Shown here piece by piece: positions 209 to 32,313 of a stretch of 37,502 bases of DNA. The stretch comes from a bacterium. GTDB taxonomy: Bacteria; UBP15; UBA6099; JAJRTR01. A program made the position numbers and the translations under genes. Position 1 is the first letter of the stretch, and each line of letters starts with the position of its first letter. A model generated the notes under the pieces. The model worked only from the letters and a program-made list of their open reading frames with translations. It did no database searches and was not told the DNA's origin. Location: assembly GCA_024278215.1 (NCBI GenBank), contig JAJRTR010000112.1, forward strand, positions 1-37,502, read 5' to 3'.

Positions 209-395
209 CCTGTTTAACCCGGATTTCTCACAAAGAAATCCGGAAAATCGCGATAACGCCTATTCTTCGACCGTTGCGGCGGCGATTCAGGATCGGTCAC
301 ATACTTACAGTGTGCTCCCTCACCGAACCCTTACCGCGCCTTGTATTACAGGTGTTCTCCCGGTTTTTGAACATGCGTTTGTGAAATATGCGGGA
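209..395 (+). repeat. Family 2 composite hairpin repeat, long copy 1
   Basis: Starts with a perfect 10-bp hairpin (CCGGATTTCT, 5-nt loop, AGAAATCCGG at 219-243). A core of about 130 bp follows. It ends with a degenerate version of a second hairpin (ATGCGTTTGTGAAATATGCGGG). The whole unit matches, in reverse complement, the sequence at 24127-24336, including stretches such as GTTGCGGCGGCGATTC and CGCGCCTTGTATTACAGG. Open frames crossing it are not credible genes. Function is unknown; it resembles bacterial intergenic repeat units that fold as RNA or DNA. Confidence 0.75.
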
Positions 396-1045: not shown

Positions 1046-1222
1046 GAGCCGATTGCAAAATTCTGATTCTGCTGCGGTCGAGTGAAATTGTCCATAGCTG
1101 CGTTGTCGGCGCGAAATCGTCCTCGACGTACTTTACAAGTACGCCTGCGAGGATTTACACCTCCGCCTTGCTCTGAACAATTTCGTTCGACCTCGCTACG
1201 AACATAATTTTGCAACTTGCTC
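1046..1222 (-). repeat. Family 1 palindromic element, copy D, with 4-bp flanking duplication
   Basis: Full-length 177-bp copy in reverse orientation. The ends are GAGCCGATTGCAAAATT (1046-1062) and AATTTTGCAACTTGCTC (1206-1222). It is flanked by TAAT on both sides (1042-1045 and 1223-1226), as expected of a target-site duplication. Its last base also forms part of the stop codon of the neighbouring glycosyltransferase (TAG, complement of 1222-1224). Confidence 0.85.
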
Positions 1223-2232
1223 TAATGGATGACCTGCCGGATTGTCTTGAAGACCTGCTCGGCGGGAATTGCGCTGAGACAGAAATAGCGTTCCCAGTCG
1301 AGTACGCATTTGGCAGAGTAGCACGGAGAGCAGTCGGCACCGCGGTATACAGTCGAGTTGCCCTCGCGCACCGGACCGTGAACGGCAGGATTCGTGCTGC
1401 CGAAGATGCCTATTGTCGGTGCTCCCATGTGAGCTGCGAGGTGCATGAGTCCGCTGTCGTTGCTCACGAATACGCGACAGTTTTTTATCAGTCTGGCGGC
1501 CTGTCTGATTGTAGTTTCGCCGGATGCTATGATAACTTTATTATCCGCAATTTCCGCAATTTTTACTGCGCGGTTTCTTTCCTGCTTCGAGCCGAAAACC
1601 ACTACTTTCGTATCGTAAGTATCAGTGACGAGGTCCGCGAGCGCCGCATATTTTTCCAGCGGCCATTGTTTGGATTCCCAGTCGGACGCCGGGCATATCC
1701 CCACTATCGGGGTGTCCAGCGGCATCTCGTTTCGCGCGTAGAATCTTTCCGCGAATTCATGATCTTCGTCTGTGAACCAGAATTCGTATCTCCTGCGACG
1801 CGGGTTCAGGCCGAGTGTCTTCAATATCTGGAATATGCCGTCCACACCATCCACGGGTCTGTCGAGTTTGACGATTTCCGTTCGGTACGGCGCTCCGGAA
1901 AAAAGTGATATGATGTCGAATCTTTTTGTGTTTTGAAGGTTCAGAACCATATCGAAGCGCTTTGCCCGGATTTCTGCCGTGAACTTGATAAACCCGAACA
2001 GGTCCTGTGTGTTTTTTCTTTTTTTGTAAGGGATTATTTCGTGCAGGTACGGGCATGGTTCTATCAGGTTGATGTATTCGCGAGCGATCATAAACGAGAT
2101 GGCGGCGCGCGGGAAAGACCTTGCGATATAAGAAAGCGAAGGCAGAGCGCGTACGATGTCGCCGAGCGCGCTGATTTTTATAATAAGAATCCTGCGTATC
2201 TCATTTTTGTCGATTATCCTGCCGGTTGCCAT
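1222..2232 (-). CDS. Glycosyltransferase family 9 (heptosyltransferase-like)
   Basis: A 336-residue ADP-heptose:LPS heptosyltransferase-like enzyme, expected to add a sugar to the LPS core at the cytoplasmic face of the inner membrane. GT9 hallmarks are an N-terminal KISALGDIVRALPSL (19-33), KQWPLEKYAAL near 188 for the donor site, and SNDSGLMHLAAHMGAPT at 257-273. A Cys pair, CSPC, lies at 301-304. The ATG at 2232 sits inside the preceding GT2 gene, giving a 32-bp overlap and about 13 residues before the usual family start. It is the last gene of the minus-strand glycan operon. The stop codon is TAG and includes one base of a family 1 repeat; without the insertion the frame would have ended with TAA at the same codon. 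The exact sugar and acceptor cannot be told from sequence. Confidence 0.9.
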   Translation of the reverse strand: MATGRIIDKNEIRRILIIKISALGDIVRALPSLSYIARSFPRAAISFMIAREYINLIEPCPYLHEIIPYKKRKNTQDLFGFIKFTAEIRAKRFDMVLNLQNTKRFDIISLFSGAPYRTEIVKLDRPVDGVDGIFQILKTLGLNPRRRRYEFWFTDEDHEFAERFYARNEMPLDTPIVGICPASDWESKQWPLEKYAALADLVTDTYDTKVVVFGSKQERNRAVKIAEIADNKVIIASGETTIRQAARLIKNCRVFVSNDSGLMHLAAHMGAPTIGIFGSTNPAVHGPVREGNSTVYRGADCSPCYSAKCVLDWERYFCLSAIPAEQVFKTIRQVIH

Positions 2233-3190: not shown

Positions 3191-3233
3191 GAGCCGATTG
3201 CAAAATTCAGATTCCGCCCCGACCGGCTCCGAC
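3191..3233 (-). repeat. Family 1 element, terminal remnant F
   Basis: GAGCCGATTGCAAAATTCAG and the next few bases match the outer end of the full element. The rest is missing. It lies in the 72-bp gap between the GT9 gene ending at 3245 and the GT2 gene starting at 3172, inside the operon. Confidence 0.6.
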
Positions 3234-5370: not shown

Positions 5371-7629
5371 TCAGTTCAGGATTTTTTTATAAATCGATTC
5401 AGTTTTGTCGACCATTTTTTCCACGGTGAAAGATGTTGCCACAGTGCGCCGCGCCGCGCCGCCCAGCATGTCGGCCAGTGATTCGTCTTCAATCACTTCC
5501 ATAATACTGGCCGCAAGCGCGTCATCGTCTCCCGGCTTCACCAGCATACCGTTTTCCCTGTTCTTTATTGCCTCGGGAATGCCGCCGACATCGGTCGTTA
5601 CAATGGGGCGCCTCATGCACATCGCTTCGAGAATAACATAGGGCAGCCCCTCGCTCCACGACGACAGCACAAATACGTCGAAAAACGGAAGCATATCACG
5701 CACATCGTTGCGTATGCCGAGGAATTTAAAGGAATCGTCGAGCCCGAGTTCACTGGCTTTGTGCTCGAGTTCCTCTCTCTGGGGGCCACCGCCCACACCG
5801 ATAAAAAACACATTGCCTATCTCGTCTTTTATCTTTCCGGCGGCACCGAGAAAGTTGACATATCCTTTTCGCGGGGTCAGCGACGCTACCATACCCACAA
5901 CCTTTGCACCATCGGGAATGTCGAATTCGGCGCGATACTTCCTGTTCAGTTCCGCGGTTCTCGACTCGTCGTAAAGTGTCGGGGAAACCCCGTTATGCAC
6001 AACATTTATCAGAGACGGATCGGTGCCGAAATTGTCGAGCATGTGTTTCATCACAAACTCGCTCACGGCAATCATGTTGTCGCTCCAGTTCATTACCCTG
6101 CTGCCCACATGCACACTGTACGTACTGTGGCAAGTAGTCAGGAACGGAATGCGGCGCTTGAGCATTCGCAGGGCGACATAACATATCCAGGCCGGAACCC
6201 TCGAGTGCGCATGTACCAGCTCGACATTATTTTCGAGCAGCACTTTTTTCATCGGGCCTATCATCTTCCTGATAACAAGCGGATTCTTGGAGTGAACGGG
6301 CAACCTGACATGCTTGACATCCTCCGCTTCGAGTTTCTCGACGAGTTTGCCGCCGAAAGAGACCACCAGCGGATCGTAACCTTTCCTTTTAAGGCCGCGC
6401 GCGAGGTCGATCATGTGCGTCTCGACGCCGCCGACGCGCAACTCCGGCAGAGTGAGCAGAATTCGCGGTCTGTCAACTTTCGGCACACCCCGCACGGGTC
6501 CGATGTACCCTTTTTTCGCCCTGATGGTTTCGTGGTAGACGCCGAGAACATCACGTATCATTTTTTCCTCGGAGAACTTCCGCGAGACATCCTCGAAACC
6601 GGCGTCGGTGAGGCGGGCACGCATCGTTTCGCTGCCGGCGAGTACTTCCATCTGTGTGGCGAGTCCGTCCGGGTCCCTCGGCTCGGCCAGCAGCGCGGTG
6701 CGACCGTGTTCGATCATTTCCGGTATGCCGCCGACACACGTCGCTACTATCGGAACCCGGCTCGCCATCGCTTCGAGGCAACCCATGGGGAAACCTTCAT
6801 ATATTGATGAAACAACATAGATGTCCAACGCCTTGAGTATGTCGAAAATGTCGGTCCTTACACCGGTGAACAGCACTTCGCCCTCGAGTCCGAGTTCGGC
6901 AACACGCTCTTCGAGGTCCTTCCTGATGGGACCGTCGCCCACAAGAACAGCCTTCATATCGGGACGGCGCTCCTTCAACCTGTGGAAAGCATCAATGAAG
7001 TACTGTGGCCCTTTTGTAGTTGTCAGCCGCCCGATCGAGCCAGCGACAGTCGCGTCGCGGGGCAGGCCGAGTTCGTCGCGGATTTCTTTTCTCGGCCTCG
7101 ACTTCGACAGCGCCAGGTCGACCTCCGCCATGTTTATCCCGTTATAGATAACAACCATCTTCGCGGGGTCCGCGTGCAGCCTCTTTTCCATGTGGTCCAT
7201 GATGCCTTTGCTGACGCAGATAATCCTGTCGCCGAATGTCATCACTTTGCTGCCTATATGCGCAGCGTACTGGCCGTGGGCGGAAGTGATGAAAGCAACC
7301 TTCATATTCCTTAGCGCGAAGTAAGTTATCCAGGCGGGAACACGCGAATGGGCGTGAACAACCTGTATGTTTCTTTCCCTGACAAGCTGCCTGACCCTGC
7401 CTGCCATTTCGTTGATCGTGATAGCCGATTTCCTGTGTATGGGCAGGGTAATGTGCTCGACATTCTGGCTTTCGAGGCGAGGCACGAGCGGGCCGCCGTT
7501 CGAGATCACCGTGACGTTGTGCCCCAGCCTCCGTATACCGGCCGAAAGCGCAGTCACATGAGTTTCCACACCGCCTACAGTCAACTCGGGGAGCATGTAA
7601 AGTATGTTTAACGTATTGCCGCTTTTCAT
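5371..7629 (-). CDS. Tandem GT4-GT4 fusion glycosyltransferase
   Basis: 752 residues made of two complete, clearly related GT4 units, about 1-381 and 382-752. The repeat shows as LPELTVGGVETH (13-24) and LPELRVGGVETH (394-405), and as VHAHSRVPAW twice (91-100 and 472-481), each 381 residues apart. Each half keeps its own EX7E motif: EGFPMGCLE (278-286) and EGLPYVILE (660-668). The protein may therefore add two sugars in sequence or make a short polymer. It is the second gene of the minus-strand operon, after a 57-bp gap. The ribosome site before ATG 7629 is weak. A sequencing-caused fusion is unlikely because both halves are intact with a linker. Confidence 0.92.
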   Translation of the reverse strand: MKSGNTLNILYMLPELTVGGVETHVTALSAGIRRLGHNVTVISNGGPLVPRLESQNVEHITLPIHRKSAITINEMAGRVRQLVRERNIQVVHAHSRVPAWITYFALRNMKVAFITSAHGQYAAHIGSKVMTFGDRIICVSKGIMDHMEKRLHADPAKMVVIYNGINMAEVDLALSKSRPRKEIRDELGLPRDATVAGSIGRLTTTKGPQYFIDAFHRLKERRPDMKAVLVGDGPIRKDLEERVAELGLEGEVLFTGVRTDIFDILKALDIYVVSSIYEGFPMGCLEAMASRVPIVATCVGGIPEMIEHGRTALLAEPRDPDGLATQMEVLAGSETMRARLTDAGFEDVSRKFSEEKMIRDVLGVYHETIRAKKGYIGPVRGVPKVDRPRILLTLPELRVGGVETHMIDLARGLKRKGYDPLVVSFGGKLVEKLEAEDVKHVRLPVHSKNPLVIRKMIGPMKKVLLENNVELVHAHSRVPAWICYVALRMLKRRIPFLTTCHSTYSVHVGSRVMNWSDNMIAVSEFVMKHMLDNFGTDPSLINVVHNGVSPTLYDESRTAELNRKYRAEFDIPDGAKVVGMVASLTPRKGYVNFLGAAGKIKDEIGNVFFIGVGGGPQREELEHKASELGLDDSFKFLGIRNDVRDMLPFFDVFVLSSWSEGLPYVILEAMCMRRPIVTTDVGGIPEAIKNRENGMLVKPGDDDALAASIMEVIEDESLADMLGGAARRTVATSFTVEKMVDKTESIYKKILN

Positions 7630-8344: not shown

Positions 8345-8521
8345 GAGCCAATTGCAAAACTATGTTCGTAGCGAGGTCGAGCGAAATTGTTCAGAGCAAG
8401 GCGGAGGTGAAAATCCTCGCAGGCGTACTTGTAGAGTACGTCGAGGACGACTTTGCGCCGACAATGCAGCTATGGACAATAGCAGCCGACCGCAGCCGAA
8501 GCAGAATTTTGCAATCGGCTC
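8345..8521 (+). repeat. Family 1 palindromic element, copy A (reference copy)
   Basis: Full 177-bp element between the ICMT-like gene and the tRNA. The left end is GAGCCAATTGCAAAAC and the right end AATTTTGCAATCGGCTC. The reverse complement of the right arm aligns with the left arm along most of its length (shared blocks include the terminus, GGTCG, ATTGT and AAAATC). The element is thus an imperfect ~85-bp inverted repeat around CGTAC-TTGTAGA-GTACG. No plausible gene lies inside. No clear target duplication flanks this copy. Confidence 0.88.
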
Positions 8522-8613: not shown

Positions 8614-8767
8614 GTATGATACTTATTTGCTGTGGCCATGTTTTCTATGATCGTGATAGAGGCACCCGGCAGGACACAGGCATTGCGCATACAGGACAGT
8701 TTCGGGAGTTCAGGAACCGGTAAATACAAAGCCTGATTTTCATTTTCGCAGTCTCGTGCGCAGTGAG

Positions 8768-8816
8768 TGGACAATAGCAGCCGACCGCAGCAGAATCAGA
8801 ATTTTGCAATTGGCTC
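8768..8816 (+). repeat. Family 1 element, right-end remnant G
   Basis: 49 bp matching the right end of the element, from TGGACAATAGCAGCC to AATTTTGCAATTGGCTC. It sits 17 bp before the tRNA-Arg gene, in the presumed tRNA leader. Confidence 0.8.
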
Positions 8817-8833
8817 AAAGACATTTTATACAA

Positions 8834-8907
<74 letters not shown>

Positions 8908-9038: not shown

Positions 9039-9214
9039 GAGCCAATTGCAAAATTATGTTCGTAGCGAGGTCGAGCGAAATTGTTCATAGCAAGGCGGAG
9101 GTGTAAAATCCTCGCAGGCGTACTTGTAGAGGACGTCGAGGACGATTTTGCACTGACAACGCAGCTATGGACAATAGCAGCAGAACGCAGCAGAATCAGA
9201 ATTTTGCAATTGCC
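9039..9214 (+). repeat. Family 1 palindromic element, copy B
   Basis: Full-length copy starting GAGCCAATTGCAAAATTATG and ending AATTTTGCAATTGCCCC, where the terminal GGCTC has decayed. It ends only 32 bp before the start of the acyltransferase gene, so it must lie in that gene's promoter or 5' untranslated region. Confidence 0.85.
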
Positions 9215-24126: not shown

Positions 24127-24336
24127 ATCCCGCATATCTTCACCAATGCGGGCCATAAATCGTGAGAATACCTGTAATACAAGGCGCGGCAAGTGAGTGG
24201 TGAGGGAGCAGCCGGCTAACCGGCCTCTTGCGCAAAATGCTGGTGCGTGACCGATCCCGAATCGCCGCCGCAACGCAGTAGAATAGGTGTTATCTTGATT
24301 TTCCGGATTTCTTTATGAGAAATCCGGGCTAAACCT
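24127..24336 (-). repeat. Family 2 composite hairpin repeat, long copy 2
   Basis: Reverse-complement counterpart of 209-395. The second hairpin CCCGCATATCTTCACCAATGCGGG is at 24130-24153. A conserved core follows, then the first hairpin CCGGATTTCT-TTATG-AGAAATCCGG at 24303-24327. The core carries about 25 extra bases compared with copy 1. It separates secDF from recJ. Confidence 0.75.
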
Positions 24337-30612: not shown

Positions 30613-30682
30613 GCCGGGCGGCTGTCTTTGCTCTGAACATTTTCACTCGACCTCGCGGCGAACATAATCTTGCATTTGGCTC
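30611..30682 (-). repeat. Family 1 element, internally deleted copy H
   Basis: Starts GAGCCG at the phosphofructokinase stop codon and ends with AATCTTGCATTTGGCTC. The right 55 bp match the left arm of the element in reverse (TTGCTCTGAACATTTTCACT). The middle is lost. Both outer ends seem kept, so this looks like an old insertion with an internal deletion. Confidence 0.7.
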
Positions 30683-32273: not shown

Positions 32274-32313
32274 TGCCGACTGCAACAGCGGGACATTAGT
32301 TTGCAATCGGCTC
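32274..32313 (+). repeat. Family 1 element, decayed right-end remnant I
   Basis: GTGCCGACTGCAACAG, then TTTGCAATCGGCTC, matches scattered parts of the right arm and terminus of the family 1 element. It lies in the gap before rpmF. The match is short. Confidence 0.5.

Follow-up and report, generated by a model that had tools for sequence, protein, structure and literature searches.

MITEs are commonly regarded as dead-end leftovers within one lineage. The bacterial examples, such as Correia/NEMIS, ERIC, RUP and QMITE, are each restricted, to our knowledge, to one genus or family. They are intergenic elements of 100-200 bp that carry no gene, end in terminal inverted repeats, are flanked by target duplications and give foldable transcripts. 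The palindromic nature of MITEs and the ability of their transcripts to fold are general, and Correia and ERIC elements act on transcripts (PMC10969869).

Several other systems are close to the repeat described here. Stem-loop repeat families with a common secondary structure are known from 40 genomes, and some of them are thought to act as RNA (PMC2267715). REP/REPIN and CGTC repeats, together with RAYT or TIRYT tyrosine transposases, occur in several phyla (PMC3733652). The transposases of IS1380 (PF13701) are counted among the relatives of piggyBac, whose duplications are TTAA and whose ends are CCC (PMC10813416).

The present repeat, termed family A, was analysed in a 37,502-nt stretch of bacterial DNA, which as a whole is called the window, and in the genome to which the window belongs. 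It shares the size range, the absence of a gene, the terminal inverted repeats, the duplications, the intergenic position and the foldable transcripts of the bacterial MITEs. Unlike them, it has an inner fold that recurs in many phyla with covarying stems, shared loops and different ends. The original prediction, made from the sequence of the window, described the repeat as either a MITE or a structured RNA repeat and recognised no named family. Against Rfam 15 the window yielded a single tRNA and no other match, and at four loci the elements themselves matched nothing up to E 1. Searching by sequence words in the full text of 5.4 million open PMC papers gave no paper on the hairpin family. 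Structured MITEs that form a superfamily across phyla and have exchangeable ends have apparently not been described before.

Family A in the window and in its genome

Copies in the window were located with a family A profile (nhmmer) built from 33 copies (Table 1). Of the nine sites originally proposed, four were recovered as full copies, one as a cut copy and two as clear remnants, while the remnant at 3191 gave only a weak match (E 3e-4) and that at 32274 was not significant (E 0.28). The reported 17-bp terminal inverted repeats, CGTAC/GTACG centre and copies in both orientations agree with the sequence. Across the family the terminal inverted repeats measure 17-20 bp and the ends are GAGCCAATTGCAAAA (GAGCC type). 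The two arms of the element pair far above chance, and of the two strands the one carried by the + copies of the window gives the better fold.

Table 1. Copies and remnants of family A and family B in the window
Feature	Positions	Strand	Evidence
Family A, cut by contig end	1..112	+	Profile positions 67-178, nhmmer E 4e-35
Family A, full, target duplication ATTA	1046..1222	-	nhmmer E 1e-60; R1 covariance model (other genomes) E 8.9e-22
Family A, full (element under study), without clear duplication	8345..8521	+	nhmmer E 8e-63; R1 E 1.1e-19
Family A, full, mutated right end with GCCCC in place of GGCTC	9039..9214	+	nhmmer E 1e-62; R1 E 1.9e-18
Family A, full, target duplication ATAA	13901..14079	+	nhmmer E 5e-60; R1 E 2.6e-18
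Family A remnant, right end	8761..8816	+	nhmmer E 4e-14
Family A remnant, left end	30627..30682	-	nhmmer E 4e-12
Family A remnant, weak	3191..3229	-	nhmmer E 3e-4
Proposed family A remnant, not significant	32275..32313		nhmmer E 0.28
Family B, IS1380-like ends	212..395	-	R1 E 1.2e-7 at 218-394; copies in genome
Family B, longer variant	24128..24336	+	nhmmer with first family B copy, E 9e-29

The expectation of hundreds of copies per genome was borne out. The terminal 17-mer occurs 519 times at no more than one mismatch in the 4.55-Mb genome, and its reversed control 0 times. Within 1.81 Mb, or 40% of the genome, 109 full and 81 partial copies were counted, which extrapolates to about 274 full copies, or about 478 full and partial ones, per genome. 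Distances between paired terminal repeats in the same 1.81 Mb peak at 178-179 bp. Exact 4-bp target-site duplications were found at 57 of the 88 full copies with flanks; random re-pairing of left and right flanks (1000 trials) gave a mean of 1.8 and a maximum of 7. The duplicated 4-mers are AT-rich and follow no strict motif (e.g. TATT, TAAT, TTAT). Nearly all full copies (105 of 109) lie outside called genes, and the 178-bp element has no gene inside, both as had been foreseen. With 4-bp target duplications, terminal inverted repeats, high copy number and no gene, family A is therefore a MITE, i.e. a non-autonomous DNA transposon, and the first half of the original alternative holds.

Much shorter versions are present in the same genome. 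A 46-bp miniature (G000:C6:16952-16997, L056) consists of two 17-bp ends with 12 bases between them and TATC on either side, and further short versions measure 64-107 bp. The ends alone may be sufficient for movement, or these versions may be internal deletions that followed insertion. Numerous contigs of the genome (C28, C11, C64, C71 and others) begin or end in or beside a family A repeat, and the contig of the window itself starts inside a copy. The repeat probably breaks the genome assembly.

Relatives in other genomes

When 60 genomes were searched with a BLAST-type program, family A had two matches; both were weak, and one was to the centre only. Both sites contain long hairpins with the centre as in family A and with different ends. 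The centre pattern AGGCGTACT-N3-8-AGTACGTCGAG, scanned in a collection with one genome per species, matched at least 101 stretches. According to the record titles, the matches listed include stretches from Gamma- and Deltaproteobacteria, Nitrospira (including the complete genome of N. moscoviensis), Acidobacteria, Neomarinimicrobiota, Binatota, Spirochaetes, Planctomycetes, Hydrogenedentota, Omnitrophota, Aegiribacteria and Firmicutes. Most of these genomes are metagenome bins, and lone occurrences could be binning errors; such an error is unlikely for the genomes with multiple copies and for the complete Nitrospira genome. Viral contigs gave 0 matches to the centre pattern, and no element was found by BLAST in plasmids and phages. 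Four pattern matches lying within genes (L076, L078, L118 and L146) are missed by the covariance model and were discarded as chance matches. Another locus, L145, is a member of the superfamily situated at the edge of its sequence slice.

The covariance model R1 was built solely from elements of other genomes, with none from the genome of the window. It recovers all four full copies of the window over the full model (E 8.9e-22 to 2.6e-18). In a survey of 290 genomes sampled across Bacteria, mostly from different families, 33 had an R1 match at E <= 0.001. Many of the matches span just model positions 30-150, which is the inner part, and lie in elements with other ends, such as CAGGCTGTTGAAAAAGG. 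The inner fold is therefore more widely shared than any single pair of ends. Family A is a branch of a cross-phylum hairpin superfamily, a spread that the original prediction had missed.

The majority of full-length relatives are 174-178 bp long. Dimensions are narrowly kept in the group with CCYGSAT ends. In 23 of the 25 measured elements the length is 174-181 bp, the other two being longer, and a left arm of 76-80 nt with a right arm of 73-77 nt is likewise found in 23 of 25. Relatives longer than 176 bp (L101, L126, L150, L133, L135, L107) measure 188, 208, 218 and 228 bp, in steps of about 10 bp. These steps may reflect the helical phasing of DNA; they may also be due to chance, several of the elements being related ones from Nitrospira.

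The stem-loop families mentioned above and bcr1 of Bacillus cereus resemble the superfamily as repeats sharing a secondary structure. As far as we know, they are limited to single species or groups, whereas the superfamily crosses phyla. The search by sequence words gave no match. REP/REPIN and CGTC repeats are similar in being dispersed, palindromic and intergenic, in forming imperfect hairpins and in occurring in several phyla. They differ in being 20-40 bp long and free of duplications, while the elements described here are about 176 bp long, have 4-bp duplications and show no link to Y1 transposase genes. The 178-bp family A departs from REP/RAYT elements in all these respects: size, duplication and Y1 linkage.

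The conserved fold

Structural conservation was assessed in an alignment (A2) of 22 elements with CCYGSAT ends, none of them from the genome of the window. Changes have occurred on both sides in 35 of the 53 pairs of the hairpin. Pairing is retained in 90.5% of cells, compared with 71.6% in shuffled data; the covariation score is 0.532 (0.188 shuffled), a value that 0 of 500 shuffles reached. Covariation extends beyond the terminal repeats and includes helices 3, 4 and 5. Because the search pattern had dictated the central stem in the first set, that stem was rechecked in the matches found by the model, where it covaries as well (GGCGTATC/GATACGTC, GGCGGGGC/GCCCCGTC, GGCATAGC/GCTATGTC). A G·U (G·T) pair near the hairpin tip is kept in 19 of 27 model-found matches. 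Strong structural covariation across the family thus speaks for the other half of the original alternative, the structured RNA repeat, with either RNA or single-stranded DNA as the putative folded form.

The internal loops of the 2x3 type are also alike. On the modelled strand, GA/GNA accounts for 55 of 71 such loops in the predicted folds of the pattern-selected families; in the R1 matches it accounts for at least 29 of 47, with a further 9 being AA/GNA. No GA/GNA loop is present among the internal loops listed for the opposite strand. The consensus of family A has three loops of this kind (CGAG/CGCAG, CAAG/CGCAG and CGCAG/CGAG) and the superfamily centre GGC...GUC.

The same strand folds better than its complement in 47 of 49 distinct families, with a mean difference of 14 kcal/mol. 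This preference is still seen in 44 of 49 families when the centre is swapped for a perfect palindrome. In folds computed without G·U, single mismatches between Watson-Crick pairs outside the centre comprise 53 G·T and 18 A·C. The p-values for the strand bias serve as a guide only, since the 49 families are related. The bias fits selection on a folded single strand, whether RNA or single-stranded DNA. Joint changes of the two arms could also be produced by template switching in quasi-palindromes, but this process would not preserve the asymmetric loops.

Family B and the search for a transposase

A second family of the same superfamily but with different ends, which had also escaped the original prediction, is present in the window at 212-395 and 24128-24336. 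This family B has about 57 copies in 1.81 Mb, its ends are YTAR|CCCGCATATTTCAC... (CCCGCAT type), and its flanks include TTAA, TTAG and CTAA. Each family B end folds into a small hairpin of its own. Among the CCYGSAT relatives, identical flanking 4-mers (CTAG, TTAG or TTAA) occur in 24 of 28 cases; the CTAG flank is palindromic and is thus weaker evidence than the flanks TTAG and TTAA or those of family B, which are clearer. CC ends combined with a YTAR/TTAA duplication are found both in family B and in the CCYGSAT relatives, which in their 4-bp YTAR duplications and CC ends are like IS1380/piggyBac. Family A is unlike IS1380/piggyBac, having GAGCC ends and duplicating unspecific AT-rich 4-mers; without a YTAR/TTAA duplication, it does not qualify as an IS1380 derivative.

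An IS1380 open reading frame in genome G277 has a right end, TGGTGAGAAATGCGGG|CTAA, identical to the end of the hairpin elements of that genome, and genome G390 has an IS1380 transposase with related ends. IS1380 was found in 11 of 33 genomes with the superfamily as against 51 of 257 (p 0.06), and several genomes have YTAR elements without IS1380. The co-occurrence is only suggestive. In the genome of the window, IS1380 is represented by a gene fragment only.

No transposase-bearing element with family A (GAGCC) ends was found in the 1.81 Mb, 40% of the genome. The sole long convergent pair of ends in this sequence (C14:10139-11566) contains two ordinary genes and was rejected as an autonomous element. 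Open reading frames beside solo family A ends were considered and are not transposase-like. The three DDE_Tnp_1 proteins of the genome were rejected as the family A enzyme, being IS4-like and IS1634-like by inspection and having different ends. DUF772 (IS5/IS1182) transposases are absent from this genome.

Proposed mechanism and alternative explanations

The reading that we consider probable, with room for doubt, is that family A is a MITE moved in trans which belongs to a cross-phylum folded-strand superfamily and needs its fold during propagation. Insertion of family A is observed; the putative enzyme would be a transposase supplied by another source and producing 4-bp target duplications. 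The conserved part is one folded strand, namely an imperfect hairpin of considerable length in which the stems covary, a G·U pair is kept near the tip and tandem-purine GA/GNA internal loops recur. The terminal repeats vary by lineage, one large group having CCYGSAT... and YTAR duplications, as in IS1380/piggyBac. The hairpin core appears to be carried by more than one type of transposase, as the different ends and duplications support, and this suggests that transposases have been exchanged. Most likely, the folded strand (single-stranded DNA, a cruciform or a transcript) would be bound at the GA/GNA loops, and this binding may bring the two ends together or protect the element. A more far-reaching proposal is tentative and has, in our estimate, somewhat less than an even chance of being right: the folded-strand module with GA/GNA loops, present in about 1 in 9 sampled genomes, would be a heritable unit that is needed for mobility and is adopted by different transposases, with the result that MITEs share an inner fold and differ in their ends.

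An ordinary MITE, in which the hairpin is a mere by-product of two joined ends and the fold has no role beyond the terminal repeats, is an unlikely explanation, although MITEs are generally palindromic and have folding transcripts (PMC10969869). Terminal repeats have to match one another anyway, and the 46-107-bp versions of this genome retain the ends only. The covariation of stems lying inside the terminal repeats (helices 3-5) argues against the by-product, as does the preservation of loops and arm lengths across phyla where the letters of the stems are not preserved; a bias to one strand would not be expected from it either. In a further scenario, which we hold to be very improbable, the repeat would be REP-like and would travel as single-stranded DNA, its hairpin being read by a tyrosine (HUH, Y1) transposase as in REP/RAYT; the strand-specific hairpin would suit this. 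Y1 genes are commoner in superfamily genomes (27 of 33 versus 142 of 257, p 0.002 uncorrected), and some Y1 genes are known to have long terminal repeats (PMC3733652). However, the elements lie near Y1 genes at just 1-2 of 30 loci, and no Y1 match was obtained in Nitrospira moscoviensis, which carries elements. Y1 transposition is not known to produce target duplications; a Y1-driven origin is therefore disfavoured by the clear 4-bp duplications of family A (57 of 88).

A structured RNA used by the host (an mRNA stability element, an RNase III site, a terminator or a small RNA) and spread by transposition is improbable too, a little more so than the by-product. It would account for the favoured strand, and the MITEs Correia and ERIC do act on transcripts (PMC10969869). 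In tandem gene gaps family A lies in the sense direction 34 times versus 18, a weak excess that would allow a small effect on transcripts. Against a host RNA, the loops and the centre are no better conserved than the stems among the copies of this genome: divergence among 84 full copies is 0.070 in stems, 0.069 in unpaired positions and 0.076 in the centre. Divergence is lower in the ends (0.039), which had however served to select the copies. Rare transitions in the 84 copies keep a pair in 58 cases and break one in 40 (p 0.09). Convergent gene gaps, the position expected of a terminator, are not enriched in family A copies, and a terminator role was rejected on this ground. Replication-strand bias, judged by local GC skew, was not found for family A. 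Since stems, loops and centre decay evenly, inserted copies decay about neutrally. Neutral decay together with conservation across phyla points to selection on propagating copies, probably on those that move, and thus to a role of the fold in mobility over one in host regulation.

One hairpin design found across phyla, with its letters changing jointly and its ends swapped, suggests recognition of the fold itself. The question why bacterial MITEs fold becomes directly testable, and a candidate new interaction between nucleic acid and protein in transposition is indicated. For annotation pipelines, one model would cover a repeat that breaks assemblies.

Gene surroundings of the copies in the window

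A tRNA-Arg gene (8834-8907) is located between a family A remnant 17 bases upstream and the full element at 9039-9214 downstream. The gene of a glycosyltransferase family 9 protein (1222-2232, minus strand) ends at the element at 1046-1222, the last base of its stop codon being the first base of the element; the insertion would therefore have set the C-terminal end of the protein. Positions 5371-7629 of the minus strand encode a single 752-aa protein composed of two glycosyltransferase-4/1 units in tandem.
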